Below, piece after piece: positions 48,399 through 63,959 of a stretch of DNA of 64,000 bases. Position 1 is the first letter of the stretch. Each line of letters starts with the position of its first letter. The position numbers and the translations under genes are program-made. The notes under the pieces were generated by a model that made no database searches, was not told where the DNA came from, and saw only the letters and a list, made by a program, of their open reading frames with translations. The stretch covers positions 1-64,000 of the forward strand of contig PKXJ01000021.1 of the NCBI GenBank assembly GCA_003132305.1, given 5' to 3'. Source of the DNA: Acidimicrobiaceae bacterium. GTDB lineage: Bacteria; Actinomycetota; Acidimicrobiia; Acidimicrobiales; RAAP-2.

Positions 48399-48471
48399 AG
48401 GGCCGTAGCTCAGTGGTTAGAGCAGGGGACTCATAATCCCTCGGTCGTGGGTTCGATCCCCACCGGCCCTA
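48399..48471 (+). tRNA. tRNA with anticodon CAT (Met or Ile2)
   Basis: A 73-base cloverleaf: acceptor AGGGCCG/CGGCCCT, D stem GCTC/GAGC, anticodon stem GGGGA/TCCCT with loop CTCATAA (anticodon CAT), T arm GTGGG-TTCGATC-CCCAC and discriminator A. The TAGCTCAGTGGTTAGAGCA half recalls tRNA-Ile2, whose C34 becomes lysidine, but elongator Met cannot be excluded. Its 3' end (48430-48473) is copied six times downstream, marking it as the attachment site of a cassette array. Confidence 0.95.
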
Positions 48472-48522
48472 CTTCAAAGACCCTAATGAACGTGAATTTA
48501 TTGTCTCCTACAAGACAAACAT

Positions 48523-48606
48523 CTCTAGTTATGACTTGAGATAATAGTTATAAAACTCTAGTTACAACTAGAGAACAGTACTTGAAATCTCTAGTTATAA
48601 CTGGAA
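48523..48606. promoter_or_regulatory. Three dyad operators before the mobile mystery A/B operon
   Basis: Three copies of a near-palindrome with consensus CTCTAGTTAYRACTNGAG lie at 48523-48540, 48556-48573 and 48589-48605, about 33 bp apart. They precede the ATG at 48617 by 11 bp and span the promoter. They are probably autoregulatory operators for the HTH protein. Confidence 0.7.
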
Positions 48607-48616
48607 TACTGTATCC

Positions 48617-49671: not shown

Positions 49672-49742
49672 CAGCTCAACTCGAAAGGCGACCTGCTCTC
49701 TCGGAGTGATGGCGACAGGGACTAAAGACGTTCATCATGAAA

Positions 49743-49910
49743 ATTCCACGTTTCATCCCACATACCAATCCGACACCACCGAACCAATCCGACGGCACCG
49801 GACAGGATTTCTTCAGATTTCGGATCATTCCGACACCACCGGACCAATCCGACCATTTGCATCCATCTCATAACCCCTCGGTCGTGAGTTCGATCCCCAC
49901 CGGCCCAACT
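49743..49910 (+). repeat. Cassette boundary module 1 with tRNA 3'-end copy
   Basis: Order: two tandem 12-bp repeats (49743-49754 ATTCCACGTTTC, 49755-49766 ATCCCACATACC), a pair of 19-bp repeats (consensus AATCCGACACCACCGGACC) at 49767-49804, a 22-bp spacer, a second pair from 49827, then a 44-bp tRNA 3'-end copy at 49867-49910 with three mismatches. The first junction after the intact tRNA. The downstream stretch 49911-50263 holds no gene I can support. Confidence 0.88.
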
Positions 49911-50263
49911 GACATCGGCTCTTGGTCAGTCCACTCGACTGGTTTCTCGTCTGATTTACGGGGCGGAGCACCCCAATCGAGGCAACTTCATTTCCGCTCG
50001 CTACAGGTCATAGTTGCAATCGTCGAAGGGATTCACTTTCATGGAAACTGGCAGCGCCAGCACTGACGGTGATCTCTTGAGCCGACCCGTGATTAATCTC
50101 AGGGACTCACCGCGGGCGAGTCCCAACATGATCTCTTCGCGTTCAGCCGTGCCGACAAGCGTCGCGCTGCAGGTTTCCACTCATTCCGGCGTTTCCCCCA
50201 CCCCCGACAACTTAGTGTCTGGTAATTGTGGTTATTCCTGGTTGGACCTCGCGAAGAAATAGC

Positions 50264-50584
50264 GTGAACGGCGTACATGGCTCCACTGGCTATGAGGTGA
50301 ATTCCCTCGTCGGTGAGCCGATCGCCTTTGAGTGGGCGGTCCACACTGAGATTTTGCAAGCCCCAATTGGACAGACCAACGCTTGGGGTGGAGCAACCTC
50401 GGCCTTTAACTGGTTTGAGGGGTACACCTTCAACGAGGGTGTCGCTACCTATTCGTCCCGTGTGTTTGACGGGTATGTTATCGGTACGCGATCAACCTGC
50501 TTTAGCGGCGACCCGTTCGACGTTATCAACACTGTCTGGCCCGAAATGAGACGAGCTCCCCCGAGCGCGAAGGAGGAAGCGTGA
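50264..50584 (+). CDS. Small protein of unknown function
   Basis: An open frame of about 106 residues from a GTG (VNGVHGSTGYEVN); a further GTG at 50228 is possible. No domain recognised; rich in Gly, Thr and aromatic residues (AFEWAVHTEILQ, AWGGATSAFNWFEGYTFNEG). No convincing Shine-Dalgarno site is present. It could be a decayed or partial gene. Confidence 0.3.
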   Translation: MNGVHGSTGYEVNSLVGEPIAFEWAVHTEILQAPIGQTNAWGGATSAFNWFEGYTFNEGVATYSSRVFDGYVIGTRSTCFSGDPFDVINTVWPEMRRAPPSAKEEA

Positions 50585-50601
50585 AACGTTGCCAAACGAG
50601 T

Positions 50602-50640
50602 GAATTGTTCTCGTCGAAGAATTGTCGACGGGAACAGTTC
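50602..50640. other. Long hairpin between hypothetical genes
   Basis: Sixteen-base arms at 50602-50617 and 50625-50640 pair over their full length if two G-U pairs are allowed, around a 7-base loop. No T-run follows. It could be an RNA structure, a protein-binding dyad or a recombination hairpin. Confidence 0.5.
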
Positions 50641-50807
50641 ACCGGTCACGTTCGCGCGAACTTCGCAGAAGCACCACTGCGCGGGGTCGGTCAACGTCTT
50701 CTCGTTCGCCGAACGGCACACACCGACTTCAGTTTCGATGTTTTAACTGACACGTCCAATCAGGTGCGCGCGTTTTTTATTGCGCGTGCTAGATAGGCGG
50801 TACTTCG

Positions 50808-52019
50808 GTGGAAAGCGGCCCTGGTTCGTGGCGGGTCAGCGTCGATCCGAGGCCAACACTTCTTCACGAGGCCCTTTTCGTCCGAGACGCTGCGGGCCTC
50901 CTAGTTGAGTCCACCTCCGAGATCCCGGCGCGACTTCGAGGTGACATACCGGATCGCAGCGGCTACTTCTCTATGGATTGGCGTGCCTCGGCGGGCGTGC
51001 GCTGGACGTCGTGGTGGCACGAACTCGTTCGCTGGGCAGCCCTACCCCGGCTCGTTTCTCTGCTGTCTGATTCTGCGTTTACTCGTCGGCCGCCCGGCGA
51101 ATACTCTTTTTCAGCGCCGCCACCGTTCCCTGTAGGGGATCAGGAGGACGAGTCCTCGGTTACGGAACTTCAACGCGTGCTCGAGCTCGCTGCTCAGTGG
51201 AGCCCGACGCTACGGACCGAACTCCGCGGAACTCGAGGACCATCACTGTTCACTCTGGGCGAGAGTGAGCGCATTGGATCTATCGCCAGGGAGACTGCGG
51301 CTCGGCTCGGCGTTCCACTCGAGGCCATGAGGGCGGTCATCCTGACGCTGGCCGTGAGCGGTGAGTGGTCACATCGGCCACTCGAGGGCGTCTTGTTGTG
51401 CTCAGAAAGCGCGATGGAGAACGAAGACCTCTTCGCGACGCTGCTCGCGGACACCTTTGTAACCGGTCTCTACCGTCAAGAAAGATTCACCCTGCCTGAT
51501 CGGCCGGCTCCGAGCCCAGCCTTTCGTTCCATTCTCGACTCACCGCTACTCATTGCCGACGGGCAAGGCATCACTTTGCGCCTTGAAGGGGTGTACCTGG
51601 GCCGTCCCGAAGGTTTTGAGCTGGAAATCTCGCGCAATGAGGAATCAACCGGTCCACCGCCGCGCCCGTACGCAAGTGGCCAGGGCCAGCCAATTGACCC
51701 GGAGCGCTTTCCCAATCACTTCAGCGGTCTCGGGGTTGACGTTCACTTCGAACCTGAGTCCCTCGCTGAAGATAACTCCACAGATAGACCTGTCAGCATC
51801 GCTATCCTCAATCGCTTCTGGCGTCGGGGGCGCGGCCCGAACACGCTGTGGTTTTGGGTGCGCGTCGAATCGCCCCGAGGCAACATATTGAAGTCGCCCC
51901 GAGGTCACGTGACGATCACCACGACGTGGCCGGAATCCGAAATTGACCACCGCTCAGTCGAATTTGAGCTGAAGGAATCGGACCCCAACGAGGAGATCAA
52001 CCGCCGAACAGCGTGGTAG
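50808..52019 (+). CDS. Uncharacterised 403-residue protein
   Basis: A long, clearly codon-biased frame with no signal peptide or membrane segment and no family I recognise. The N-terminal half has WWHELVRWAALPRL; a middle helical part reads ARETAARLGVPLEAMRAVIL; the C-terminal part is beta-rich (ITLRLEGVYLGRPEGFELEI, VSIAILNRFWRR). GTG start. It lies in the largest cassette upstream of the RNA-repair operon but is separated from it by a tRNA-Lys fragment, so the two may have come in separately. Confidence 0.6.
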   Translation: MESGPGSWRVSVDPRPTLLHEALFVRDAAGLLVESTSEIPARLRGDIPDRSGYFSMDWRASAGVRWTSWWHELVRWAALPRLVSLLSDSAFTRRPPGEYSFSAPPPFPVGDQEDESSVTELQRVLELAAQWSPTLRTELRGTRGPSLFTLGESERIGSIARETAARLGVPLEAMRAVILTLAVSGEWSHRPLEGVLLCSESAMENEDLFATLLADTFVTGLYRQERFTLPDRPAPSPAFRSILDSPLLIADGQGITLRLEGVYLGRPEGFELEISRNEESTGPPPRPYASGQGQPIDPERFPNHFSGLGVDVHFEPESLAEDNSTDRPVSIAILNRFWRRGRGPNTLWFWVRVESPRGNILKSPRGHVTITTTWPESEIDHRSVEFELKESDPNEEINRRTAW

Positions 52020-52180
52020 TCCAACCGAAATGTTGGGTGCGTACCCAGTCGGACGACCAGCTGAATCGCACCGGGTATTGCGTTGACGAAGATTCTTCCA
52101 CCTAGCTTAATTTTCACTCCAGATCGTCATTGTCGCGACTGCGTTGGGATGCATTGATTGTGGTGGAGATTTACTACTTT

Positions 52181-52224
52181 GGTGCGCCGGCCGGGACTTG
52201 AACCCGGAACCTGTTGATTAAGAG
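52181..52224 (-). repeat. tRNA-Lys(CTT) 3' fragment with encoded CCA
   Basis: Read on the minus strand, this is the anticodon loop CTCTTAA, variable region, T arm CCGGG-TTCAAGT-CCCGG and a 3' end GCGCACCA. The 5' half of the tRNA is absent. It encodes CCA, unlike the three complete tRNAs here. Most likely an attachment remnant of an element that used a tRNA-Lys gene, now inside cassette 2. The rest of 52020-52581 holds no gene I can support. Confidence 0.75.
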
Positions 52225-52581
52225 AAGCTTGCTAACGGTTGTGCGGTGTCGGTCTGGTCGCGCATGTCGATTGTTTTCAAGGAAATGCGTTGTCTCACGT
52301 CGGTCTCGTCTTGTGGTGTTGCAGAAGTATGAGTCCCTAAAATGAGGCCTGTCTCGAAGCTCAAAATCGCCCGTCAGCGCAACAAACCATCAGCCATTCA
52401 GAGTGCGGGTTCACGGTGGGCCTCCGACATCAATGATCGGTGTCCGGATCATCAGCGGAGGCGCGATAAGTTCACGAACAAATTCTGGAGAGAATTGTCG
52501 CAGAAGCGGTTGAGCCCTCAAGTGCAACTACCGCGGCTGGCGTAGCGTTGGACAGGACAAGCGCCCAATTGGAGCCCATCA

Positions 52582-53976
52582 GTGTTACTGACCATCAGTA
52601 CTACCTACGAACCAGCAACGGACCTGGGCTTCTTGCTGCACAAGAACCCGCAACGACACCAGGGTGTCGAACTGAGTTTCGGCACGGCCCACGTCTTCTA
52701 TCCTGAGGCGTCGAAAGCGCGCTGCACGGTGGCGGTTCTCGTCGCGGTGGACCCGGTCGACCTCGTTAGGAACCGCAAAGGTCCAACTGGCGGCGAGTCG
52801 TCGCTCGGCCAGTACGTCAACGACCGCCCGTACGCGGCCTCGTCGCATCTCTCGGCTGCGATCAACAAGCTCTTCAGCACGGCGATGAGTGGCCGCTGCA
52901 AGGAGCGCCCCGAACTCGTGGACGTGGCCATGTCGTTCGAGGTCTGGCTCCCCACGCTCCCCGTGAGAGGTAGCGCCGACCTACTTGAGCGCCTCTTCGA
53001 GCCACTCGGCTACGTGGTGACATCGACACCGATTCCCCTCGACACGACGTTCCCCAACTGGGGACCCAGTCGGTACTGCGACGTGCGACTCACCACCACG
53101 ACGCTCCTTCGCGATCTGCTCGAGCAGTTGCTCGTGCTGATCCCAGTCTTGGACGACACCAAGCACTACTGGGTCGGTCCCGATGAGATTGACCGGCTCC
53201 TGCGCCGCGGCGGCGAGTGGTTGACGGGACATCCCGAGCGTGAACTGATCACGAAGCGCTATCTTCGCCACGACCGGGCGCTGACGAACCAGGCACTCGA
53301 ACGCCTACTCGACGTTGAGGATATCGACGAAGTTGAGAGCGCCAACGACAACGTCGAAGAAGCCGTCGAACGAACGATCTCGCTGAACGACCAGAGGATC
53401 ATCGCCGTAGTCGAGGCGATACGCAACTCGGGAGCACGACGCGTCCTCGACCTGGGCTGCGGCTCGGCGAAATTGATGCGGGCTCTCCTCGCCGACACCC
53501 ACGCCGACAAGGTCGTCGGTGTCGACGTGTCGTACCGGTCACTCGAGGCGGGCGCGCGCCGCCTTCATCTCGACACCATGACGCCGCGTCAGCGAGATCG
53601 CGTCGAACTGCTGCACGGGTCGCTCACCTACCGCGACCGTCGGCTCGAGGGATTCGACGCCGCGGCGGTCGTCGAGGTGATCGAACACCTCGATCCGTCA
53701 CGCCTGGAGAGCTTCGAGCGCGTGGTCTTCGAGCACGCTGCGCCAACCGTGATCGTCATCACGACGCCCAACGTCGAGTACAACGTTCGCTTCGACGGCC
53801 TGGCGCCCGGGACGATGCGTCACCCGGACCATCGTTTTGAGTGGACGAGGGCCGAGTTCGCGCAGTGGGCCACTGGCGTCGCCGAGCGACGCGGTTACGG
53901 CGTCACCTTCTCTGGTATCGGGCCCGACGACCCCGAGGTCGGCTCGCCGACGCAGATGGCGGTGTTCACGAAATGA
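52582..53976 (+). CDS. hen1: Bacterial Hen1 RNA 3'-terminal 2'-O-methyltransferase
   Basis: A 464-residue protein. The N-terminal Hen1-specific domain (DLGFLLHKNPQRHQGVELSF, about 12-31) precedes a SAM methyltransferase domain: VLDLGCGSAKLMRALL near 288 and the Mn2+ site EVIEHLD near 365 with a downstream His in MRHPDHRFEW. It 2'-O-methylates the 3' end at a broken RNA before sealing, protecting the repaired tRNA from a second cut. GTG start with GGAG 7 bases upstream. ATGA overlap with pnkp, the standard order. Confidence 0.93.
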   Translation: MLLTISTTYEPATDLGFLLHKNPQRHQGVELSFGTAHVFYPEASKARCTVAVLVAVDPVDLVRNRKGPTGGESSLGQYVNDRPYAASSHLSAAINKLFSTAMSGRCKERPELVDVAMSFEVWLPTLPVRGSADLLERLFEPLGYVVTSTPIPLDTTFPNWGPSRYCDVRLTTTTLLRDLLEQLLVLIPVLDDTKHYWVGPDEIDRLLRRGGEWLTGHPERELITKRYLRHDRALTNQALERLLDVEDIDEVESANDNVEEAVERTISLNDQRIIAVVEAIRNSGARRVLDLGCGSAKLMRALLADTHADKVVGVDVSYRSLEAGARRLHLDTMTPRQRDRVELLHGSLTYRDRRLEGFDAAAVVEVIEHLDPSRLESFERVVFEHAAPTVIVITTPNVEYNVRFDGLAPGTMRHPDHRFEWTRAEFAQWATGVAERRGYGVTFSGIGPDDPEVGSPTQMAVFTK

Positions 53977-56513
53977 ACATCAAGATCCCCGAACTTTCGC
54001 TCGTCCTGCTCATTGGCGTGAGCGGCTCGGGTAAGTCATCCTTCGCCGCGAAGCACTTCCTACCGACCGAGGTACTGTCGTCGGACTTCTGTCGCGGTCT
54101 CGTCAGCGACGACCAGAACAACCAGTCAGCCACCCAGGACGCCTTCGACGTCCTGGGCTACATCGCGGGCAAACGTCTGGCTGCGGGTCGCCTCACCGTG
54201 ATTGACGCCACGAGCGTTCAGCCTGAGTCCCGGCGCGTCCTAATTGACCTGGCCAAGCGGCACCACGTCCTGTGCGTCGCCGTCGTCCTGAACGTTCCGC
54301 CCGAGATCTGTCTGGCGCGTAACGAATCGCGCCCCGACCGCGACTTCGGCCCGCAGGTGGTTCGTCGGCAACTGGATCAGTTGCGGCGATCAATGAAGGG
54401 GCTGCGCCGCGAGGGCTTCCACCGGGTCGTCACCTTGGACGGTGTCGAAGAGATCGAAGCGGCAACCTTCGTACGTGAGCGGGTCTGGAATGACCGACGC
54501 AACGATCACGGTCCCTTCGACATCATCGGTGACGTACACGGCTGCTTCGACGAGTTGGTCGCCCTGTTGACCGAACTTGGCTACGAGGTCGCCAGTGACG
54601 CCACCACGGCGTCGCACCCCGAGGGGCGCCGGGCACTCTTCCTCGGTGACCTCGTTGACCGCGGACCCCAGACCCCGGCCGTGCTGCACCTCGTCATGGG
54701 CATGGTGAGAGACGGCATCGCACTCTGCATCCCCGGCAACCACGAGGTGAAGCTGCTTCGAGCGTTGCAGGGTCGCCAAGTCGCCGCGAGCCACGGGCTC
54801 ACCGAGAGCCTCGATCAGTTACGGTCCGAGCCCCCGGAGTTCACCAAGGAGCTCATCGACTTCCTCGACGGACTGATCGGGCACTACGTCCTCGACGATG
54901 GCCAACTGGTCGTGGCCCACGCGGGACTCCCGGCGTCGATGCACGGCCGCCAGTCGGGCGCCGTGCGCGCCTTCGCCCTCTACGGCGACACGTCGGGGGA
55001 AACCGACGAGTTCGGGTTGCCCGTGCGCTACCCGTGGGCCGACGACTACCGCGGCGAAGCGACCGTCGTCTACGGCCACACCCCGGTCCCCGAGGCCATA
55101 TGGATCAACAAGACCATCTGCCTCGACACCGGCTGCGTGTTCGGCGGCCACCTGACCGCGCTGCGCTACCCGGAGCGCGAACTGGTCTCGGTACCGGCGC
55201 GACAGGTGTACTACGAACCCGTCCGCCCGCTCGGCACCGAGTCGGCCAGTACCAGTTCAATACGCGAACCGGGCGAACTCGATCTCACCGACGTGGTGGG
55301 CAAGCGCATCATCTCGACGTCACTGACGCGCAGCGTGACCATCCGGGAGCAAAACGCAATCGCCGCCCTCGAGGTCATGAGTCGTTGGGCCATCGACCCT
55401 CGCTGGTTGGTCTATCTCCCGCCGACCATGGCGCCCACGGCCACCACCAAGGTCGAGGGTCTGCTCGAGCACCCCAACGAAGCCTTCGAGACGTACCGAG
55501 CGGTCGGCGTCGACGCGGTGGTGTGCGAAGAGAAGCACATGGGTTCGCGGGCGGTCGTGGTGGTCTGTCGCGACGTCGCAGCCGCGGCGCGACGATTCAC
55601 GACCGACCGGCCGTCACTCGGCGTCATCCACACGCGAACCGGGCGCCCCTTCTTCTCGTCGCCAGCCGACGAGGCCGACATCCTAGAACGCGTCCGCGAC
55701 GCCATCACCGCGGCAGGCCTGTGGGACGAACTCGGGACCGATTGGCTAGTGCTCGACTGCGAGTTGCTTCCGTGGTCGGCCAAGGCCGAGGATCTCCTGC
55801 GTGGCCAGTACGCCGCAGTCGGGGCAGCCGCGAGTTCCACTTTGGCGGCCGAGGAGTCCGTCCTGGCCGCCGCCGCCGGTCGGGGCGTCGACGTCGAAGG
55901 ACTGCTGGCCACGACCAAAGAGCGCATCCACATGGTGGACGGTTTCGTCGACGCGTACCGCCGGTACTGCTGGGAGGTCGCAACGCTGGACGATCTCAAG
56001 CTCGCACCATTTCAGATCCTCGCCGGCGAAGGCGAGACATACGCCCTACGCGACCACCTCTGGCACCTCGAGATCCTGAGCCGACTGGTCGCGGCCGACG
56101 AGACGACGTTCCGATTGACCCGCCACATTGTGGTCGATCTGGCGAACCAGTCATCGATTGATCGTGGAGTGTCGTGGTGGCAGGAGCTCACCGACGCCGG
56201 GGGCGAAGGAATGGTCGTCAAGCCGGTCAACGTTGCGGTTCACCGTCCCAAGGGGCTCGTCCAGCCTGGCATCAAGTGTCGGAGCCGTGAGTATCTGCGG
56301 ATCATCTACGGCCCGGAGTACACCGCGCCGCACAATCTTGAACGACTGCGTAGCCGTAGCCTCGGACTCAAGCGATCGCTCGCCATTCATGAATTCTCAC
56401 TGGGGATTGAGTCCCTTCAGCGCTTTGTGGCGAACGATCCTCTCTACAAAGTTCACGAGTGCGTTTTCGGAGTTCTGGCGCTCGAAAGTGAGCCCGTGGA
56501 TCCAAGGCTTTGA
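53973..56513 (+). CDS. pnkp: Polynucleotide kinase-phosphatase-ligase Pnkp
   Basis: An 846-residue three-domain RNA-repair enzyme. The 5' kinase has P-loop GVSGSGKSS at about 15-23; the metallophosphatase has GDVHGCFDELVALL near 183 and GNHEVK; the C-terminal ligase-like adenylyltransferase has the nucleotidyl Lys in EEKHMGSR near 520. With Hen1 it repairs tRNAs cut by ribotoxins. The start is the ATG at 53973 overlapping hen1; the longer frame runs through hen1. Being cargo of a tRNA-anchored array fits a role in surviving tRNA-cleaving attacks. Confidence 0.95.
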   Translation: MNIKIPELSLVLLIGVSGSGKSSFAAKHFLPTEVLSSDFCRGLVSDDQNNQSATQDAFDVLGYIAGKRLAAGRLTVIDATSVQPESRRVLIDLAKRHHVLCVAVVLNVPPEICLARNESRPDRDFGPQVVRRQLDQLRRSMKGLRREGFHRVVTLDGVEEIEAATFVRERVWNDRRNDHGPFDIIGDVHGCFDELVALLTELGYEVASDATTASHPEGRRALFLGDLVDRGPQTPAVLHLVMGMVRDGIALCIPGNHEVKLLRALQGRQVAASHGLTESLDQLRSEPPEFTKELIDFLDGLIGHYVLDDGQLVVAHAGLPASMHGRQSGAVRAFALYGDTSGETDEFGLPVRYPWADDYRGEATVVYGHTPVPEAIWINKTICLDTGCVFGGHLTALRYPERELVSVPARQVYYEPVRPLGTESASTSSIREPGELDLTDVVGKRIISTSLTRSVTIREQNAIAALEVMSRWAIDPRWLVYLPPTMAPTATTKVEGLLEHPNEAFETYRAVGVDAVVCEEKHMGSRAVVVVCRDVAAAARRFTTDRPSLGVIHTRTGRPFFSSPADEADILERVRDAITAAGLWDELGTDWLVLDCELLPWSAKAEDLLRGQYAAVGAAASSTLAAEESVLAAAAGRGVDVEGLLATTKERIHMVDGFVDAYRRYCWEVATLDDLKLAPFQILAGEGETYALRDHLWHLEILSRLVAADETTFRLTRHIVVDLANQSSIDRGVSWWQELTDAGGEGMVVKPVNVAVHRPKGLVQPGIKCRSREYLRIIYGPEYTAPHNLERLRSRSLGLKRSLAIHEFSLGIESLQRFVANDPLYKVHECVFGVLALESEPVDPRL

Positions 56514-56631
56514 TTGGCTACCGCGCGACGGCTAGTTATTCGGACTAATGATTCGAGGCGTACGGGTTCATGTGGGGCCGACGGCGTGATCTCTCGTTAG
56601 TGGCTATACCTTCGTCATTCCGAACCGCAGT

Positions 56632-56637
56632 TAGTCT
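56632..56637 (+). promoter_or_regulatory. -10 element of the 56645 gene, leaderless layout
   Basis: TAGTCT, 7 bases, then the ATG at 56645. Confidence 0.5.
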
Positions 56638-56644
56638 GGCGACC

Positions 56645-57313
56645 ATGGGAAGCGTCCACGACGGAGTTGTCTATCTGTGCCTTGATGGCGATTTTTTTGG
56701 CGATGAGAACACAGTTGCGCATTGGACTGGACATTGTGAATTTGGTGATGAATCTCCGTTTGAGAATGGACCCGATTTCTTGGACGCGGGTGAAGCAGTG
56801 ATGTGGTGGAGGCAGCGTGGGGCCAAACGCATCTACATTCGACTCGACTTTCAGGAAACGCTGTGGGCGGGCGAGGGAACTTCACCGGCTGACTCAGTGG
56901 AGATCGCTACTTTTGATTTCGCTGACCCGCGAGGCCGGCCACGGGGGGCGAGAGAAACTTTCGAGACGATGCGCCTGGCTTTTGCAGAGAAACAAGCATC
57001 CGAGCATGCGTTGGCTGCGTTTGAGGAGGGCCGTCGGCTAACACAGCGACGTGAGTCTGTGAACCTGTCCATTGATGAGTTGGCGAATCGCGTGGGAGTG
57101 TCATCAGAGTGGCTTGGCGACGTGGAGTCAGGGAAATCAACTGAAGAAGTCACTTTCTCACAATGGGTCAATCTGGTCTGGGCTACGCGCAGAGGATGGC
57201 CCGATGAAATGCGCTCTGTGACGACTGGAAGCGTGGGTTGGGTTGCCCAACAGGGGCAGTTTCTTCGCGAGGCTGAGGTATTCGTGAACAATAGGCTTGG
57301 ACTCTACGACTGA
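56645..57313 (+). CDS. Uncharacterised protein with C-terminal XRE-like HTH
   Basis: A 222-residue protein. The N-terminal 110 residues have no recognised fold (MGSVHDGVVYLCLDGDFFGD, aromatic-rich). The C-terminal half has an XRE-like helix-turn-helix, ESVNLSIDELANRVGVSSEW, then LGDVESGKST. The ATG at 56645 fits a leaderless promoter; an earlier in-frame start at 56570 is less likely. Possibly a regulator of neighbouring cargo; unproven. Confidence 0.6.
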   Translation: MGSVHDGVVYLCLDGDFFGDENTVAHWTGHCEFGDESPFENGPDFLDAGEAVMWWRQRGAKRIYIRLDFQETLWAGEGTSPADSVEIATFDFADPRGRPRGARETFETMRLAFAEKQASEHALAAFEEGRRLTQRRESVNLSIDELANRVGVSSEWLGDVESGKSTEEVTFSQWVNLVWATRRGWPDEMRSVTTGSVGWVAQQGQFLREAEVFVNNRLGLYD

Positions 57314-57441
57314 AGGCTGGCTCTCGAACCGGCTTAGTCATTTTTGGTCGCGGGGCATTCGGTCTCTAGGCAACCCTTTGGAGCCGCTAGTGGAAGGTTG
57401 CAGTCACGTCGGGCCTTCGACACCAAAGATGAGGAGCGCCC

Positions 57442-57987
57442 TTAGACACCTGATGAATTGTCCCAAACATCCTTAATCGCTCTCGCCACTGACTTCGCAA
57501 TCTGGCGATTGCGACCCAGGTCAGTGACGGAGGAGGAGAACCGTGGTCTGCTACTGCAGACGAAAATAGTCCCGCCTTCGGGTGAGTTCGGCAACTTGAT
57601 GCCAACCTGTTGAGGTTGCCATCCGATGACAGTGTACGTAGTCCAACCTTGGACGATGTCGTCTGTCGCCTGGATGTTGTGGGCGCCCGAGGCACTCAAC
57701 GCCGTCTTAGCAATCCTGACCAACTCTGCTTCAGATTTGCTTCCTGGCACTTCAACGCTGATGCTCGTAGTGAGAGGGCCTGGAAGTCCAATCCAGTCTG
57801 ACTCCCGATCTTGCGCGCCATTCGGACGAAGGAGTCGGTCAGAGCGATTGATTCTTCTGATGGAAAGAATCAAAGCCGCGAGCGCGAGTACGACAAAGGT
57901 CGTCAGGAAAATTGGCTCCACAGCGACGAAGCCTATGCCTGTGTTTGATGAAGAATTGAAACCAAGCCCTACCCGGCTTCGATCCAT
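57442..57987 (-). CDS. Single-TM protein of unknown function
   Basis: A protein of about 181 residues starting at MDRSRVGLGF. One membrane helix at about 25-43 (IFLTTFVVLALAALILSI), a basic stop RRINRSDR, then a soluble C-terminal domain with SISVEVPGSKSEAELVRIAK and WTTYTVIGWQPQQVGIKLPN. No family recognised. It lies at the end of cassette 2, convergent with the gene at 56645. Confidence 0.55.
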   Translation of the reverse strand: MDRSRVGLGFNSSSNTGIGFVAVEPIFLTTFVVLALAALILSIRRINRSDRLLRPNGAQDRESDWIGLPGPLTTSISVEVPGSKSEAELVRIAKTALSASGAHNIQATDDIVQGWTTYTVIGWQPQQVGIKLPNSPEGGTIFVCSSRPRFSSSVTDLGRNRQIAKSVARAIKDVWDNSSGV

Positions 57988-58095
57988 CCGGATTGCCCGA
58001 CACTGTCTCAGCCCACGAGTCTCCAATGCAAGGTGGCATTTCTGTGGCGTCGGGCCTCCGATGTGAACCCGCACGCGACGATTACCATTCAGAAA

Positions 58096-58264
58096 ATCCC
58101 ACGGAAAATCCCACATACCATTCCAACCCAACGAGACGAGACCGACACCAGAGGACGAAGTATTCAGAGAAGTCAAGACCAATACGACACCACAAGACCA
58201 CTCCAACAGTTTGCAGCCACCTCATAATCCCTCGGTCGTGGGTTCGATCCCCACCGGCCCTACT
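58096..58264 (+). repeat. Cassette boundary module 2 with tRNA 3'-end copy
   Basis: Two 12-bp repeats (58096-58107 ATCCCACGGAAA, 58108-58119 ATCCCACATACC), then four partly decayed 19-bp units and a perfect tRNA 3'-end copy at 58221-58264. The flank just upstream (about 58049-58095) also matches the flank of module 5, so homology extends beyond the module. Confidence 0.88.
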
Positions 58265-58351
58265 AGTGTCGTTTCACCGATTTTGTTCGCACCGATTCGC
58301 GCCATTTTGAATCTGTAAATGTACTGTTTCCGATAGCGGCTCGCAGTTGAA

Positions 58352-59170
58352 CTAGTCAGTTCGCAGCAGCGCACGCAATTCGTTCGCCACAGCACGCGGT
58401 CGACTTCCGTAGGCATTATGCCCACCAGGGAAGTGCGCTAATTCGACATGCAGCAGTTCTGCCAACATTGCTGCGCATCGGTTGGGCCAATTGGCAGTGG
58501 AAGTCTCTCCTGCGGAGGGAATGACTTTGGACCTCACCCCTTCAAGAAGTGACAAGTTGATTTGATAATGCCGTACCGCCGGAGCATCGTTCGTCAAGAA
58601 GAACTGTAGGTTGTCTGCCATGTGGAGCGAGAGTTGGGGCGCGGGAGCATCCGCTTCTCTATCACCAAAGTCAACGCCCGAGAGCTGAAGGAACTTCATC
58701 ATTGCGGCTCTCACCCCTTCCTTTCTAAATACGACCTCAACTTCTTCTTGCTCGTGAAGCGCCTTGACCAATTCATCTGGTGGGAGCAACTGCTTCAGCG
58801 GAGGCTCATGGGCTACGAGCGTGCGTATCTGATTGGGGTGGGTTGTGACCAGATCAAGTCCAATCAGTGCACCAATGCTGACGCCAAAGACGAAGGCCGG
58901 CTCTGAGGTGACTGTCGCCAGAATGATTGATGCATCCTGAGTGTGTCTTCTGACGTCAGCGGGTGGCGCACCTGGCTTGAGGACACTTCGCGAGAGACCG
59001 CGTCTGTCATAACTCACTATCGTGAAGTCACTTTCCAAGTGAGTTGCGAGGGCATCGGACCCATCCGCATCAGCCGCACCGCCCTGAATGACAAGTACGA
59101 CGGGGCCCGAACCTCTCGACTTGTAATAGAGAGTTGCGCCCGGCACATCAATCGAGTCTTGTGATTCCAT
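58352..59170 (-). CDS. Alpha/beta hydrolase
   Basis: A 272-residue alpha/beta hydrolase: VLVIQGGAADADGSD at about 26-40, YDRRGLSRS, nucleophile elbow GVSIGALIGLD with Ser at about 97, and the late His in HFPGGHNAYG. The family includes haloalkane-like and esterase-type enzymes. It is the only gene of cassette 3 and reads opposite to the tRNA. Substrate unknown. Confidence 0.88.
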   Translation of the reverse strand: MESQDSIDVPGATLYYKSRGSGPVVLVIQGGAADADGSDALATHLESDFTIVSYDRRGLSRSVLKPGAPPADVRRHTQDASIILATVTSEPAFVFGVSIGALIGLDLVTTHPNQIRTLVAHEPPLKQLLPPDELVKALHEQEEVEVVFRKEGVRAAMMKFLQLSGVDFGDREADAPAPQLSLHMADNLQFFLTNDAPAVRHYQINLSLLEGVRSKVIPSAGETSTANWPNRCAAMLAELLHVELAHFPGGHNAYGSRPRAVANELRALLRTD

Positions 59171-59251
59171 CGCCGCATCCTCCCACGTCGTAATGACTTC
59201 TAATCACTGACGTGATTCATGCTCGGTAGGTGCAGGAATAGCGGCAAGAAA

Positions 59252-59418
59252 ATCCCACGTTTCATCCCACATACCAAACCGACACCACCGGACCAATCCG
59301 ACGCCACCGGACAGAATTACTGTAATTCTCGGACCAAACCGACACCACCGGACCATTCCGACAGAATGCAGCCACCTCATAATCCCTCGGTCGTGGGTTC
59401 GATCCCCACCGGCCCTAC
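59252..59418 (+). repeat. Cassette boundary module 3 with tRNA 3'-end copy
   Basis: The best conserved module: 12-bp repeats at 59252-59263 and 59264-59275, 19-bp repeats at 59276-59313 and from 59336, and the tRNA 3' copy at 59376-59418. The spacer between the repeat pairs holds a perfect dyad GAATTA-CTG-TAATTC. Confidence 0.9.
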
Positions 59419-59514
59419 CGGATGTATGTTTTCGATCGTGGTGATGACTCTTGAGAGAGTACGTGACTGACCAAACGGGCGTATCCCTCTAGTACTTCCG
59501 TGCCAATCGTGCGC

Positions 59515-60018
59515 TCATGGAGCAATGCGAATAGCCGACCCACCGCTGACCGTCGTTGAGCCTTCTTTGACTGTGGTCGTTAGCTGGTACCACCCTTTGC
59601 CTGCGTCAGCTGGTACTTGAATTAGCGAGACGGGGTGAGCGGATTTCTGGTCGGAAAGTCGGATGGTCAATGCTTTGGAATTGACGACACCTAACTGCGG
59701 GTGAGAGCGAGCGAAGGCTTTTTTGAGTGAAGCGACAGTTTGAAAGGGGCCAGAAATGCTTGCTGAGAGAGTGACCATGCTTCGGGCATAGTTATTCGGT
59801 GGGTACGTCGATTGACTCCATTTGAGTGTCATAACAGCACCTGGGTGGTACACGGTGTTGACAGCCGACGCAGTGCAACAGCTGTAGCTGAATGTTGCGG
59901 GAGATGATTTCGACGTTTGAGCGCCAGATGGAATTGGACTGAAAAAGATGAAGCCAAACACGAGAATTCCTGACAGCAACGTCAGCCGATTCGCTCCACG
60001 ATAAAACTTCGATTTCAT
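59515..60018 (-). CDS. Secreted protein of unknown function
   Basis: A protein of about 167 residues with a signal peptide: basic KSKFYRGANR, hydrophobic LTLLSGILVFGFIFF, then a likely cleavage after SGA (about 33). The mature part is Ser/Thr-rich and beta-like, with a CC pair at FSYSCCTAS. No catalytic motif seen. The start is ATG 60018; a longer frame has no family support. Divergent from the PadR gene in cassette 4. Confidence 0.6.
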   Translation of the reverse strand: MKSKFYRGANRLTLLSGILVFGFIFFSPIPSGAQTSKSSPATFSYSCCTASAVNTVYHPGAVMTLKWSQSTYPPNNYARSMVTLSASISGPFQTVASLKKAFARSHPQLGVVNSKALTIRLSDQKSAHPVSLIQVPADAGKGWYQLTTTVKEGSTTVSGGSAIRIAP

Positions 60019-60143
60019 TGACGCTCCCACGTAGTCGCATTCCGATTCCACTGGCTGAAGACAAAGCATCTTCGCTGATTCAAACGCTCGACGGAAGTAT
60101 ATACTACGTAATCTGATATAGTCACCCTATCGAAGGAGGTCGT

Positions 60144-60461
60144 GTGGCGGTCAAAGGCTGGCAACGAGCGCAGGACCCCGCGTTACTTGTCTTGACCTCG
60201 CTTGCCGCCGGCCCAAAGCACGGTTACGCGCTCATTGGTGATATCGAAGAGATCACGGGTGTGGCTTTGGGGCCAGGAACTTTGTACGGGGTACTTGCCC
60301 GATTAGAAGACGCTGGCCTTGTCGAGGCGCTGCCCTCCGAAGATCGTCGGCGACCGTACAAGATCACCGGAGCTGGAAGCGCCGCGCTTCGCGAGCGTCT
60401 TCTCGCTACTTTGGCCGTCACGTCAATTGGATTACGTCGATTGGGCGTCACGCCAGCATGA
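60144..60461 (+). CDS. PadR family transcriptional regulator
   Basis: A 105-residue winged-helix PadR protein: LLVLTSLAAGPKHGYALIGD at about 14-33, then GPGTLYGVLARLEDAGLVEA and RPYKITGAGSAALRER. GTG start with AAGGAGG 3 bases upstream. An AGTATATACT palindrome about 50 bp upstream could be its operator. It overlaps the membrane-protein gene by 4 bp and probably controls it. Confidence 0.88.
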   Translation: MAVKGWQRAQDPALLVLTSLAAGPKHGYALIGDIEEITGVALGPGTLYGVLARLEDAGLVEALPSEDRRRPYKITGAGSAALRERLLATLAVTSIGLRRLGVTPA

Positions 60462-61378
60462 CGAGTGAATCGAAGCTGATCACTTTTTCGCTCAACTCGT
60501 ACCCGTCCTGGTGGCGCGAGCGCTATCAGGACGAGGTAGGTGCCGTCGTTGAGTGTCTCGTGGAAGCCGGTCGTTCACCGCTGTGGATTACCGCCAATCT
60601 TCTGAGATCTTCCATCACCACGAGAATCAGGGGCACCGGCGCACCGGCGGCGCGAGAGTTCTGGGTGCATCGAACGCAGAAGTCACTCATGGTGGCATTT
60701 CTTGCGTGGTTCACGATTGTTCCTTTGGCAATTGTCTTCATGCTCTCGATCGGGGAGAACGGGGTTTCCCACGGGAACACATTGGTGCAACTGAGCCACG
60801 CCGGCACTACTGCACACAATTTGCAGTCCGTTGCGAGCATCGTCGTGGTGCTCATCTTTGTGATCGCTTTGAGGGGTTGGCGCCAGTTACGATCTGGCCT
60901 CGAAGGCCAGGTAATCCCAACGAAGCTCTTTCGAGTCGTGAATCGTGGCGCGATGGTTGGCATCACCCTGACGATCGCGGCGCTCTTCTTGGGCGAGCAC
61001 ACCAGTACGTCCATGTTCGCAGAAGTGTGTGCCTACATTGGGCTGAGCCTCTTCGTGTGCGCGTGGCTGTTGACGCCGGCGGTTATTTCACAGATGCTGC
61101 GTCACGGCGAACTTTCTGTTACGAATCTGCGCAAGGTGGTTTCGGGTTCGACGGTCTTGGTATGGCTGTATGGCTTAATCACACTGCTGGTCGTGGGCTC
61201 GGAAGTTGCGCTTGCGGCTCAGCCAGTTCCGGCCTCGGGGGCGAGTTACCTGTCCCTGCATTCCGGGCTTGGTAGCTGGAGCATGTTGCTCTGCGTTGGC
61301 TTCGTAGTTCTAACGATCCTTAGCGGTATCGGAGCGTCAGTATCTCGCCGATCATGCGAGCATATTCTTACAACTTGA
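60458..61378 (+). CDS. Multi-TM membrane protein
   Basis: A 306-residue protein with a soluble N-terminal 75 residues (SYPSWWRERYQDEVGAVVEC) and about 6 membrane helices, for example SLMVAFLAWFTIVPLAIVFM and LYGLITLLVVGSEVALAA. No known family recognised; the PadR/permease-like pairing is often linked to drug or stress response, but this is inference. The following 61379-61685 holds no gene I can support. Confidence 0.7.
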   Translation: MTSESKLITFSLNSYPSWWRERYQDEVGAVVECLVEAGRSPLWITANLLRSSITTRIRGTGAPAAREFWVHRTQKSLMVAFLAWFTIVPLAIVFMLSIGENGVSHGNTLVQLSHAGTTAHNLQSVASIVVVLIFVIALRGWRQLRSGLEGQVIPTKLFRVVNRGAMVGITLTIAALFLGEHTSTSMFAEVCAYIGLSLFVCAWLLTPAVISQMLRHGELSVTNLRKVVSGSTVLVWLYGLITLLVVGSEVALAAQPVPASGASYLSLHSGLGSWSMLLCVGFVVLTILSGIGASVSRRSCEHILTT

Positions 61379-61685
61379 TGGAAGCAGTGCTGCTGCGAAT
61401 GACACGCGTAACTATGTTAAAGGCGTTTCAACAGCGCCAGCGCTTTGGACCAGAATTGTTGCCTTGGGTCACTGACGCCAACAATCACAGACCATTTCAT
61501 CGTCGAAGAGTTTCAATTCTCTTAACTGCGATATTGAGATGACGCACTTTTCGAAAATCGCGTTGCCACTCCCTTGCTACTCCAATGCGTGTACGCAATG
61601 GACGTCGACGCTACTTTGTGGATTTTCTCGAAGACCCGAGCACACTGTGTAGACGTAAAACACGTGACGAACAAGTTGCGACCCC

Positions 61686-61729
61686 CTCATAATCCCTCGG
61701 TCGTGGGTTCGACTCCTACCGGCCCTACT
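61686..61729 (+). repeat. tRNA 3'-end copy 4 (no upstream module)
   Basis: A 44-bp copy with a few changes (TTCGACTCCTACC). The 12-bp and 19-bp repeats are absent upstream here, so this boundary is either older or of a different type. It separates cassettes 4 and 5. Confidence 0.82.
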
Positions 61730-61856
61730 AACTGCCCTACCAATGAGAGAAAGGAATGCAGTTTGCGGGTGCTCTAATACGTAATCCGCGGGCCACGGTA
61801 AAGTGCGGCGAACGGCGCGCGGAGTGCCACCAAACCACCACGACCTTAGGAGCAAA

Positions 61857-62201
61857 ATGTCCACTACGACCGATCTCATTGACGGCGAGATTGCTGCATA
61901 CCGAGCTCGCAACTTAGACGAGTTCCTCTCCTGCTACTCGGCGGACGCGGTGATCAGGGATGCTGACGGCAACGTCCTGATGGAGGGAGAACTTCAGATG
62001 CGTGAGTTCTACGGACCCTTGTTCCGTGACAGTCCCGACCTCCGTGTGGAGATCCCGAGGCGAATCGAGTTCGGCGATTACGTCATCGACGAGGAGCCCG
62101 TCGATGGTGTCAACCTGGAGGGATACCCGCCGCATCTGCACGCAGTAGTCGTCAACCGAGTGAAGGACTCGAAGATAAGCCACGTCACGTTTCTCATGTG
62201 A
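61857..62201 (+). CDS. SnoaL-like/NTF2-fold protein
   Basis: A 114-residue protein of the SnoaL/NTF2-like fold: DGEIAAYRARNLDEFLSCYS, then DAVIRDADGNVLMEG and FYGPLFRDSPDLRVEI. Members are small ligand-binding proteins or isomerases. ATG preceded by TAGGAG with 4 bases between. The single gene of cassette 5 (about 0.84 kb), the smallest. Function not determinable. Confidence 0.82.
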   Translation: MSTTTDLIDGEIAAYRARNLDEFLSCYSADAVIRDADGNVLMEGELQMREFYGPLFRDSPDLRVEIPRRIEFGDYVIDEEPVDGVNLEGYPPHLHAVVVNRVKDSKISHVTFLM

Positions 62202-62397
62202 TTGATTGCAAGACTTAGGCCCTCAATGAAATCGGACTCACACACTTGCTGGATTCACGAAACGAGGCCAGGTCGCACGTTGCCTCGGGTCTCGGGTCCG
62301 AACCCGTCGAGTTCACCCCAGCCACAAGTGGCCGGTAGCAGATCTGTTGTCTCGGGCCCCCGAAACGAGCCCGCACGCGACGATTCCCATTCAGAAA

Positions 62398-62565
62398 ATC
62401 CCACGTTTCATCCCACATACCAATCCGACACCACCGGACGAATCCAACACCGCCGGACAAGTTTTCTTTCGAATCCGGATGAATCCGACCTCACCGGACC
62501 AGTTCGACCGTTTGCAGCCACCTCATAATCCCTCGGTCGCGGGTTCGATCCCCACCGGCCCTACT
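62398..62565 (+). repeat. Cassette boundary module 5 with tRNA 3'-end copy
   Basis: Two 12-bp repeats (62398-62409, 62410-62421), four 19-bp units with a few substitutions (AATCCGACCTCACCGGACC is one) and the tRNA 3' copy at 62522-62565, one base different. The flank at about 62345-62397 matches that of module 2. Confidence 0.88.
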
Positions 62566-62613
62566 CGTCGGAGTTTCGCAAGCGCCGATGAACACTGCAT
62601 GGGACTGGCGCTC

Positions 62614-63867
62614 TCAAAGAGTTCTTGGACCGGTCGCAGGCTGATCCGGCCAAGGCACGAAGTAATCAGACGTCCGACCGTCGTTAATTCGATCAAAGCG
62701 CAGTAGTTCACGGATGATGCCTGCGTTGCCCTTTGCCCAACCAGTCATTGGCTCGAGGTCACTTGGGGAAACGCGGTGCTCGAAGTTCGACCAGCGCGCG
62801 CCCTCGATGTCGATAGTCGCTCGTTTGCAGATATCGTCGACGAGAATGCGGGCGAAGTCACCATTTTGATCTCGCTCGACGTACCGATCACTGGCGAACG
62901 CGAGCACTCCTGCGGTTCCGCAGCAGCGGCCACTGTTATCCCAGAAGCCGGGACGCAACCGTTCAGGCAGACCCGACGTAATCAGTGTTTGCCAGCAGCG
63001 GTCGGTGAGTTCCATCCACTTGGGGTCTCCCGTAACCGCGCCGAGGAGTCGAAAGGCTTGGGCGTCGCCGGCGGGTCCGTGACACCACCCGTAGCTGTAT
63101 CGCTCGATTAGCTCTGGTCGATGCTGAGGGTCAGAGTGCGGGACAAGGAAGCCGTCATCCAGAGCTTCGTTGCGGCTGATCACGTCAGCTGCGCCCGCGA
63201 GAGCTAGTTCGACGAGATCGGGTCGAGATGTCGCGTTTCCGACCGCGGCGAGAGCCTCCACAATGCCGAGTGTGCCGTGGGACACGTGGTGGAGGCGGGC
63301 GAGTGTCCCAACTCGATTTTCCCAGTTGACACCCGCGGGCGTTGCGTCCGCCCGTTCTAAGTATGGTGTCACGGCCGTCAGGGCCAGATTCATATCGCCG
63401 ACGCGTAATGCTCCGAGGGCTATTCCCGCATTACCGGCGAGAAGTTCGAAGGCGTCGCTCCAGCGCTGGCCGTCGAATCCTGCGAGGACAACTTCTAAGG
63501 CTCTTATCGCACTTGCTCGCGCGGGAGAGTCGCCAAGAACCTCGTGAACTGACTGTAGAGACACGGCCATTCCAGTCAGCCCGAAATATAACGAACTGTC
63601 ATCCCACGTTTCAATGTTGGCACCTATTTCACGACTCGCCCTGAGGGCGATGTCCCCAAAGCGGTCGTCGTTGAAGTGTCGGTACGCTTCAAGGAGGGTC
63701 ATCACGATACCGGCTCCACCGCTATACAACGTCGGGAGTAGTTCTTCCGCAGAGCGCGAATCTGCCCACGCAACTCCGTTATCAGTGACTCGCGCAGACG
63801 AAATGAGCCAGTCCAAAGACTTCTCGATGGTTCCCTCTGAATCCGCGTACACCGCATTCACGTACAT
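62614..63867 (-). CDS. LanC-like protein
   Basis: A protein of about 417 residues with the LanC/LanCL-type alpha-toroid repeats: LHHVSHGTLGIVEAL, YGWCHGPAGDAQAF with Cys near 260, and SGRCCGTAGVLAFA with Cys near 314. In LanC cyclases the last site is C-H-G; here it is C-C-G, so the third zinc ligand would be Cys. Start chosen at MYVNAV (63867), with 63888 also possible. No lantibiotic precursor or dehydratase gene is in the window, so cyclisation of a lantibiotic is not implied. The sole gene of cassette 6. Confidence 0.82.
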   Translation of the reverse strand: MYVNAVYADSEGTIEKSLDWLISSARVTDNGVAWADSRSAEELLPTLYSGGAGIVMTLLEAYRHFNDDRFGDIALRASREIGANIETWDDSSLYFGLTGMAVSLQSVHEVLGDSPARASAIRALEVVLAGFDGQRWSDAFELLAGNAGIALGALRVGDMNLALTAVTPYLERADATPAGVNWENRVGTLARLHHVSHGTLGIVEALAAVGNATSRPDLVELALAGAADVISRNEALDDGFLVPHSDPQHRPELIERYSYGWCHGPAGDAQAFRLLGAVTGDPKWMELTDRCWQTLITSGLPERLRPGFWDNSGRCCGTAGVLAFASDRYVERDQNGDFARILVDDICKRATIDIEGARWSNFEHRVSPSDLEPMTGWAKGNAGIIRELLRFDRINDGRTSDYFVPWPDQPATGPRTL

Positions 63868-63915
63868 AGACTTACACGTTGACTGCACCGGTCCGTTCCG
63901 ACGGATCTCTCCCCC

Positions 63916-63959
63916 CGCATAATTCCTCGATCGTGGGCTCGATCCCCACCGGCCCTACT
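63916..63959 (+). repeat. tRNA 3'-end copy 6 (degenerate)
   Basis: A 44-bp copy with several changes (CGCATAATTCCTCGATCG and GGGCTCGATC). No upstream boundary module is seen. It is the last copy in the window; the array may continue beyond 64000. Confidence 0.75.

Follow-up and report, generated by a model that had tools for sequence, protein, structure and literature searches.

Islands that are anchored at tRNA genes and grow additively, with cassette-like turnover, are already known. The portions of the reports available to us describe additive flexible genomic islands at tRNA genes in Alteromonas (PMC4119200), in Candidatus Actinomarinales (PMC7771536), where two genomes of >98% average nucleotide identity differ by small added fragments, and in Methylopumilus (fGI-2, PMC10872708). 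Here we analysed a stretch of 64,000 nucleotides, hereafter called the window (positions 1 to 64,000 of contig PKXJ01000021.1, assembly GCA_003132305.1, Acidimicrobiaceae bacterium), in which a block of about 168 bp recurs in front of tRNA-derived sequence. Sequence comparison makes it very probable that this block represents half of an attachment site, of the attR type, for lambda-like tyrosine integrases directed to tRNAs, forming the right-hand end of a small integrase-less cassette in an integron-like array that would be served by an integrase in trans. What carries this reading is the anatomy of the block, its constant geometry, the cassette-wise spread between genomes, one gain or loss at the anticodon loop, and integrases with matching words at the same tRNA elsewhere.

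Other described systems are relevant as well, again as far as the available text of each source goes. Dehalococcoides carries tandem islands at ssrA, of which 15 have no integration module and are thought to move with their neighbours; a serine recombinase and a 20-bp repeat are involved, and the integration modules of vcr islands alone take 9-11 kb (PMC3146451). Tycheposons are large cargo transposons of 4-200 kb with a tyrosine recombinase, located at tRNA genes including tRNA-Met(CAT) (summarised in PMC10872708). Tandem actinomycete integrative and conjugative elements (AICEs) at tRNAs are known, with tandem arrays called inherently unstable and Acidimicrobidae reported to be without AICEs (PMC3218068). 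Finally, an actinobacteriophage attP for tRNA-Lys(TTT) consists of a 43-bp core equal to the tRNA 3′ half, flanked by pairs of putative arm sites and adjacent to the integrase gene, and the same source names the anticodon loop as a common place for att sites of mycobacteriophages (PMC10865867).

Structure of the boundary blocks

An initial annotation of the window, made from the sequence alone, had described a boundary module of almost constant length ahead of four tRNA copies. All four blocks were confirmed, with ends differing by 0-1 base from those first given and with near-constant lengths of 167, 168, 167 and 167 bp. The order of units also held: two 12-bp units (ATCCCAC-N5), two 19-bp units, a spacer, two further 19-mers, and a tRNA 3′ half of 43-44 bp. 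tRNA sequence is indeed present in each block, but what had been called tRNA copies are 3′ halves only, the sole intact gene being tRNA-Met(CAT) at 48399-48472. The tRNA core of each block starts at the anticodon loop and represents the 3′ half of this tRNA, the 43-bp core being identical to it in several copies, so that the end of the element repeats the tRNA 3′ half while the intact tRNA heads the array. The sites in the window are as follows.

48399-48472, + strand: intact tRNA-Met(CAT), anchor of the array (ARAGORN; Rfam tRNA); core at 48430-48472
49743-49909, + strand: block 1, putative P arm (12-mers, 19-mers) plus tRNA 3′ core
58096-58263, + strand: block 2, the reference copy of the initial annotation; 19-mers degenerate
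59252-59418, + strand: block 3
61686-61728, + strand: tRNA 3′ core, no recognisable arm block
62398-62564, + strand: block 5
63916-63958, + strand: tRNA 3′ core with traces of arms only; the blast match spans block positions 95-167

The Met label of the anchor was given by ARAGORN from the anticodon, and the gene could also be a tRNA-Ile2 with a modified CAT anticodon. We infer that it is attL-like, its 5′ half being original and its 3′ half coming from the first cassette.

The window lies on contig C35 of a genome of 2.9 Mb in 35 contigs, called the own genome below (G, C and L numbers are our labels for genomes, contigs and stretches). A blast search of this genome found 11 near-complete blocks, all on C35, in an array of about 41 kb (48.4-89.2 kb) behind the intact tRNA(CAT); seven of them lie beyond the window. 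C35 further contains a block truncated at the anticodon loop (70000), a shortened block (89096) and four cores with little or no arm (61686, 63916, 69423 and 79752), and one additional block with a Lys-type core was found on C7.

At up to 3 mismatches, the 19-mer had 9 matches in the window against 0.14 expected, and the 12-mer pair with its conserved surroundings had 3 against 0 in 100 shuffles. The bare pair ATCCCAC-N5-ATCCCAC, with 3 mismatches allowed, gave 10 matches against 4.29 expected, a number reached by 1 of 100 shuffles, and is weak evidence for a repeat above chance; exact copies of the pair in the window were confined to the blocks. Across 12 copies of the own contig, conservation was 0.96 and 1.00 for the two 12-mer words, 0.84-0.89 for the 19-bp units and lowest in the spacer (0.72), and in the block at 58096 the 19-mers were strongly degenerate. 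An RNA family search of the block (Rfam) matched only tRNA.

Arm words at a fixed distance from the anticodon loop

We measured the distance from the first 12-mer to the anticodon loop, counting only arm pairs with a core 20-260 bp downstream and leaving out core-less pairs. Among 73 distinct sites of the ATCCCAC class, 51 were at 124-126 bp, with the remainder at 102-107 (12), 84-88 (2), 64-65 (7) and 46 bp (1). A second class, with AGGCCTC as the arm word, comprised 21 sites, 19 of them at 126-127 bp, one at 75 and one at 62, the last containing a run of N. Taken together, 70 of 94 sites (124-127 bp) kept the same distance, and most others were shorter by steps of about 20 bp, which may reflect loss of repeat units, preserved helical phase, or both. 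The spacing is common to Met, Lys-TTT, Lys-CTT and Gln cores (the last at one site) and to G050, a genome of another family; it is kept even though G050, the Gln site L203 and the Lys-CTT sites L190, L193, L197 and L205 do not have the 19-mer sequence of the window. Some ATCCCAC sites listed as Lys-TTT have Lys-CTT cores, the two patterns overlapping at 5 mismatches, which leaves the distances unaffected.

The initial annotation had proposed a recombinase-binding boundary module of constant spacing, and this proposal is supported by a distance that stays constant while arm word, spacer and tRNA change. Given such constant arm-core geometry across tRNAs and words, we concluded from the compared sequences that the 12-mers are most likely arm-type sites and that the block is most likely a P arm plus core.

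A profile of the arm part (12 copies, core excluded) was found at E<=0.001 in 22 of 81 genomes: the own genome, 20 of the 48 further genomes of its genus and, outside that genus, 1 of 32 (G050). The 81 genomes contained 71 exact copies of ATCCCAC-N5-ATCCCAC and none of the reversed pattern, although the exact pairs in G004, G020, G055 and G059 have no core and look like chance; AGGCCTC-N5-AGGCCTC occurred 45 times against 3 for its control, and its 9 occurrences in other genera look like chance. An arm-pattern scan of named genomes gave 57 stretches, 43 of them from metagenome-assembled genomes (MAGs) of Acidimicrobiaceae (palsa, bog or fen isolates), whereas L254, L265, L269 and L272 come from unrelated phyla and have no proper site. 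We infer that the host genus is a peat or permafrost group of Acidimicrobiaceae, in which the own genome is placed by way of its near-clone G081. A phage origin was also considered, and the 3 matches of the 24-base arm pattern in viral contigs had no recognisable tRNA core and were taken as chance.

Cassette-wise spread between arrays

We examined 30 contigs of 23 genomes and cut them at Met cores, which gave cassettes on 24 contigs of 20 genomes; the contigs were chosen for module matches and G081 repeats part of the array of the own genome, and the counts are not those of a random sample. The 101 Met-core cassettes measured 521-10329 bp (median 1437) and were bounded by blocks or bare cores. 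Core orientation was uniform on each contig, and up to 17 cores, tRNA included, occurred in one array. The initial annotation had set against itself the possibility that the module lies far from tRNA genes and not at cassette joins; this was largely not the case, 86 of the 101 cassettes having right-end arms before the tRNA core.

Cassettes were called shared when at least 60% of both cargos matched between genomes, which was true of 27 pairs. Without the near-clone pair G000-G081 there remained 23 shared pairs in 13 families, comprising 31 cassettes of 14 genomes, 70-100% identical. Homologous neighbours were seen in none of 23 testable pairs (7 of 30 with the clone), and flank homology in 2 of 44 tests, one being G017-G093, where two successive cassettes are common at 99-100%. 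In 18 of the 23 pairs homology started within 60 bp of the left boundary in both members. Of 32 ends of inter-array matches of at least 93% identity, 13 were no more than 60 bp away from a core; positions this close make up 6.5% of the arrays, and the chance level is about 13% when either contig may count. All seven own-genome pairs with a measured background, i.e. own 14-48 kb compared with the retrieved parts of partner contigs, had cassettes of 80-95% identity against 72-81%: 95 against 81.1% for G083, 91 and 80 against 72.9% for G082, 92 against 75.9% for G028, 86 against 72.0% for G089, 86 against 72.2% for G017 and 81 against 72.6% for G029. Judging from these sequences, the cassettes appear to be exchangeable one by one.

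Several Lys-TTT cassettes have tandem arm words, as in a P′ arm, about 50 bp after the core. Among the Lys-TTT cassettes L107, L112, L114 and L123, some have such a P′ arm and others share GTGGATCCCAACGGT about 25-32 bp after the core.

The exchange point in a pair of close strains

G081 (MAG palsa_511, L259) is a near-clone of the own genome. Own 61700-70133 corresponds to positions 1-8351 of G081 C189 (98.8%) and own 69998-72749 to 9939-12712 (97.5%), and between the two matches G081 has one extra cassette with an open reading frame (ORF) that reads as methyltransferase-like. A 97.5% copy of the extra cassette is present in G083, in another context and with the same left margin of the right-hand block. 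Where the own genome has AGCCACCTCATAATCC followed by GTGCTC, the left G081 block has AGCCACCTCATAATCC followed by CTCGGTC and the right G081 block ATCCACCTCTTAATCC followed by GTGCTC. Up to and including the A of the loop the own sequence thus equals that of the left parent, and beyond TAATCC that of the right parent; the exchange therefore lies in these six bases, which cover the anticodon loop on its 3′ side together with the first bases of the stem. For the 13 kb of the own array next to the tRNA, G081 had only block-length matches among those listed, while 61.7-72.7 kb is common to both: in this one pair, and subject to MAG gaps, the array has a variable head and a stable tail.

Candidate integrases at the same tRNAs

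Integrases were searched with PF00589 and as relatives of P0001, the integrase of G050 (PF00589 and PF14659); G081-G095 were searched with P0001 only. G050 (4.58 Mb, one contig) has in succession a tRNA-Met, ATCCCAC words 11 bp apart, P0001, cargo, ATCCCAC words at 126 bp and a second core, which by its sequence looks like a classical element with its own integrase. Its cargo (L117 9179-12452) includes a large OLD-like ATPase ORF and an opposite-strand ORF, a candidate replication protein, both named from sequence reading.

Relatives of P0001 stand directly behind tRNA-Lys(TTT) in G029, G005, G089, G087, G083, G093 and G092 (the contigs of G005 and G093 begin inside the tRNA 3′ end), behind tRNA-Lys(CTT) in G087, behind tRNA-Gln(TTG) in G085, and behind another tRNA-Met, initiator-like by reading, in G026 and G095; others are located at tRNA-Arg and tRNA-Val. 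Thus, for every one of the four core types there is some genome with an integrase next to the corresponding tRNA. The words before the integrase gene clearly match the module class in G093 and G026 (ATCCCAC) and in G092 (AGGCCTC). In G109, a tRNA-Asn and a tRNA-Met are followed by AAATCCCACGTAAATCCCAC and then by an integrase of 393 aa that shares 61% identity with P0001 and 68% with the Lys enzyme of G093; here too ATCCCAC stands before the gene. Two other matches were rejected: one to the tRNA-Met/arm pattern in G129 is not at a tRNA, and a core-like one at L336+35534 does not continue as a core. Words beside integrases are often 11 bp apart (L334/L336 in G109, L117 in G050, L169 in G029), compared with 12 bp in the blocks.

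Proposed mechanism and alternative explanations

The following course of events would account for the array. A P arm, made of two tandem 12-bp arm-type words and units of about 20 bp that perhaps serve an accessory factor, would be kept some 126 bp away from a core that begins with the anticodon loop. A cassette circle with P arm and core would recombine either with the core of the tRNA or with one of the cores in the array; exchange at the anticodon loop would let the incoming core restore the tRNA 3′ half and push older cassettes downstream, and repetition would build an integron-like array. Recombination between two cores would remove or reshuffle single cassettes. The enzyme would come in trans from autonomous elements with the same tRNA and the same arm word; circles are the presumed intermediate, and the candidate integrases listed above would act on the cassettes and catalyse these steps.

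A number of observations weigh against this reading. Right-end arms are missing from 15 of the 101 cassettes. Tandem ATCCCAC or AGGCCTC words, as a second (P′) arm, occurred in the first 150 bp of 0 of 101 Met cassettes (ATCCCAC in 1 of 86 interior controls), and lambda-type integration usually needs a second arm, one-armed sites being unusual for lambda-type enzymes. Among the 23 shared pairs, three reach no more than 70-78% identity. The strain comparison caught one gain or loss, and the right G081 block contains an NN scaffold gap, with both diagnostic junctions in continuous sequence; many compared genomes are MAGs. Simple slippage between repeats could account for the 20-bp steps in distance. 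Arm words are degenerate beside the other Lys-TTT and the Lys-CTT integrases, and none were evident beside the Gln and Arg integrases. The arrangement of Met core end, 38-68 bases and ATCCCAC matched in just 2 of 99 genus genomes, G109 and G129, and at a tRNA only in G109; the 56 kb of the G109 contig examined (92001-147995) contained no module. A donor Met integrase and an array were not seen together in one genome, no related autonomous element was found at the own tRNA-Met, and PF00589 had no match inside the own array.

Part of this evidence would fit ordinary accretion, in which old tRNA islands are stacked, have lost their integrases and are immobile remnants like cis-mobilizable elements (CIMEs), the blocks being relics. 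The searched arrays yielded no integrase: PF00589 was also without a match in the Met arrays of 12 further array genomes, the one match in G028:C62 being about 36 kb away. Degraded cores and arm-less ends (61686, 63916, 69423, 79752), the cassettes without right-hand arms and the lack of a second arm in all of them point in the same direction. However, single cassettes are common to genomes with unrelated neighbours, with identity above background where measured; the close strains differ by a cassette with its junction at the core; and the block geometry has been kept. We therefore regard accretion as unlikely, though a serious contender.

RecA-type homologous recombination between similar 168-bp blocks could move cassettes with no site-specific enzyme acting now. 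The blocks are about 77% identical on average, and the arms of shared cassettes are relevant here: right-hand arms had a mean identity of 83.1% (n=17) against a background of 76.5% (p=0.0008), and left-hand arms 80.5% (n=11, p=0.08), so that left arms are not clearly less alike than right ones. Right and left do not differ significantly (p=0.18; the right arm had the higher value in 4 of 7 pairs), and therefore the unit boundary is not proven by the arm comparison, a further point against our interpretation. On the other hand, the own/G081 junction falls in a 6-bp stretch at the block end with the remaining own block from one parent, and cassettes are shared without flank homology (42 of 44 flank tests negative), which makes recombination by RecA alone improbable.

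In a true relative of integrons, an IntI-type enzyme would recombine attC-like sites in the form of folded single strands, and an array of small cassettes with common end sites is what such a system has. Two of eight blocks folded better than shuffles (z -2.56 and -2.54), but the other six had z-scores from -1.20 to +1.44 and there was no common hairpin. Covariation in aligned blocks, which the initial annotation had suggested looking for, was absent (0 of 9 consensus pairs with a compensatory change), and by these two results attC-like folding was rejected. P0001 scored 33.6 bits and the window integrase at 12165-13304, the only own integrase scanned, 44.5 bits on the integron-integrase model, whose cut-off is 265, and array genes point in both directions; such a relationship is highly improbable. 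Least probable of all is an unrelated transposable repeat lying near tRNA fragments by chance, since the arm-core distance is fixed with four tRNAs and two arm words and each array contig has one core orientation, in spite of some ten arm pairs or fragments without a recognisable core (e.g. L127, L130, L137, L223, L229, L236, L240 and L264), which are also a point against our interpretation and were taken as decayed or cut sites.

We thus return to the one-armed half site at the end of integrase-less cassettes. Accessory genes seem to enter and leave the genome singly through the array, as they do in integrons, but with another kind of site. A wider proposal, to which we give an even chance, is that these arrays represent a third gene-capture platform, with tRNAs as permanent docking sites, cassettes ending in one-armed double-stranded half sites of fixed geometry, and interchangeable integrases with matched 12-bp words, carried in by passing elements, that load, remove and shuffle cassettes genus-wide. 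If so, a changed core or arm word would let the same design use other tRNAs and integrases. How small integrase-less cassettes join additive tRNA islands has stayed vague; it is now possible to name the unit and the site at its end, the spacing rule, the point of exchange and candidate enzymes, and the mechanism can therefore be tested directly. Arm words, cores and spacings also vary naturally and so provide a variant set for asking how one-armed attachment sites work.

Cassettes and cargo of the own array

The cassettes of the window and the module inside one of them are listed here.

48473-49909, + strand: cassette 1; helix-turn-helix (HTH, 48617-49090) and Fic (49087-49671) genes (Pfam); ends in block 1
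49910-58263, + strand: cassette 2, composite, 8.35 kb; Hen1_L/methyltransferase and PNKP-type RNA-repair genes (Pfam); ends in block 2
52171-52360, − strand: type B module, reversed, inside cassette 2; one intact AGGCCTC word, CAACACCACAAGACGAGACCGAC-like units, tRNA-Lys(CTT) 3′ half; inverted repeats
58264-59418, + strand: cassette 3; alpha/beta hydrolase (58352-59170, − strand; Pfam); ends in block 3
59419-61728, + strand: cassette 4; PadR regulator (60144-60461) and two proteins without Pfam match; ends in an arm-less core
61729-62564, + strand: cassette 5; SnoaL_2 protein (Pfam); ends in block 5
62565-63958, + strand: cassette 6; LanC-like protein (62614-63888, − strand; Pfam); ends in a core with arm traces

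Among the proteins tested in the own array, Pfam matches comprised HTH and Fic, Hen1/PNKP RNA repair, hydrolase, PadR, SnoaL, LanC-like, Phd/YefM antitoxin, short-chain dehydrogenase and glyoxalase, several proteins had no Pfam match, and PADLOC gave weak matches only. The genes point in both directions.

Cassette 1 has a homologue, 86% identical, at a different array position in G017. Before its HTH-Fic genes, three 19-bp repeats like ATCTCTAGTTATGACTTGA at 48521-48605, with 33-bp spacing and partly palindromic, are present in both the own and the G017 copy and are possibly operator sites. Cassette 3 recurs in G082 (91%), G089 (86%) and G029 (81%); when the first 13 kb of the own array was searched in 18 genomes, the hydrolase match in G082 spanned own 58095-59419, that is, from block start to core end. 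A full-length copy of cassette 4 (95%) is present in G083. In cassette 2, 52404-56579 (Hen1/PNKP-like RNA repair) matches G027:C128 at 95% identity and 52537-56516 matches G084:C13 at 76%, and these genes are apparently mobile cargo beside tRNA-derived sites. Relatives of the type B module (about 75-84%) occur dozens of times across the genus, apparently as a second family of arrays with Lys cores. Reading the ~80% matches of own 52180-52352 as Lys-CTT modules was rejected, since there is no such core in them and type B is mostly found with Lys-TTT cores.

tRNA-Ala elements of the window

Two further elements with integrases of their own lie at the other side of the window.

13415-13488, − strand: intact tRNA-Ala(GGC), left end of element 1; displaced 3′ cores at about 7258 and 287
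12165-13304, − strand: tyrosine integrase of element 1 (PF00589 and PF14659); P′ and P arms share TTAGCTA..
5979-6821, − strand: part of a tyrosine integrase, element 2 (PF00589, 280 aa); P′ and P arms share TTCAGCAGTTAC

Element 1 reaches from 13415-13488 to the core at 7258, with words of the TTAGCTA type that follow the tRNA and recur about 126 bp ahead of the far loop, and element 2 from the core at 7258 to 287, with TTCAGCAGTTAC words at both ends. The ORF at 6710-7123 may be the N-terminal part of the element 2 integrase in another frame, its gene perhaps being split. Arm-loop distances in these elements are about 123-131 bp, and a comparable 12-bp repeat appeared in 14 of 2000 random draws of a 20-bp stretch. 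The 12-mers of the blocks had been likened to the arm sites of the tRNA-Ala elements, and this applies to the layout, a 12-bp tandem about 126 bp before the loop, but not to the letters, which differ. Since the region 287-13488 (− strand) holds two stacked elements, each with its own PF00589 gene and its own arm word at both ends, it is a natural pair for studying arm specificity.

Comparison with known systems

The closest anatomical twin is the phage attP at tRNA-Lys, which in the available description has arms on both sides and its own integrase gene, whereas the Met cassettes have one arm and no integrase gene. Measured against tRNA-targeting tyrosine-integrase elements in general, the anatomy agrees, with arm repeats at a fixed distance that match the integrase-side words clearly for some integrases, the words of others being degenerate or absent, while in the Met cassettes there is no second arm and, where searched, no integrase of their own.

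Integrons are arrays of small, singly exchanged cassettes with folded attC sites and the IntI integrase. The arrays described here are similar in that small cassettes are exchanged singly and vary near the anchor (in one strain pair), and they differ in having neither folded attC nor IntI, a double-stranded tRNA core, genes in both directions and some multi-gene cassettes.

With CIMEs, tandem accretion and the ssrA islands, as far as the sources describe them, the likeness lies in tandem elements behind an RNA gene. CIMEs are flanked by att sites and have no recombinase or transfer genes; here the sites are one-armed, and a recombinase was found neither in the own array nor in the Met arrays of the 12 genomes. 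Compared with the ssrA islands, the half site here is of the tyrosine-integrase kind, the median cassette is 1.4 kb long, one array can hold as many as 17 cores, and the searched arrays contain no helper. Tycheposons, in the summary available, share the tRNA-anchored cargo and differ from the many small recombinase-less cassettes seen here, again with a median of 1.4 kb.

The additive islands are alike in their tRNA-anchored cassettes that differ between close strains; in the parts of those reports at hand only the tRNA repeat is described, and the present locus adds the arm block, its fixed distance, the word classes, the matched integrases and the mapped junction. No earlier description of this arm block was found in the literature searched, many subscription papers being outside its reach. 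As far as these searches go, what is new is the combination of a fixed-geometry one-armed half site that would end small integrase-less cassettes with integrase-matched word classes, several tRNAs, arrays across a genus and an exchange mapped to the anticodon loop.
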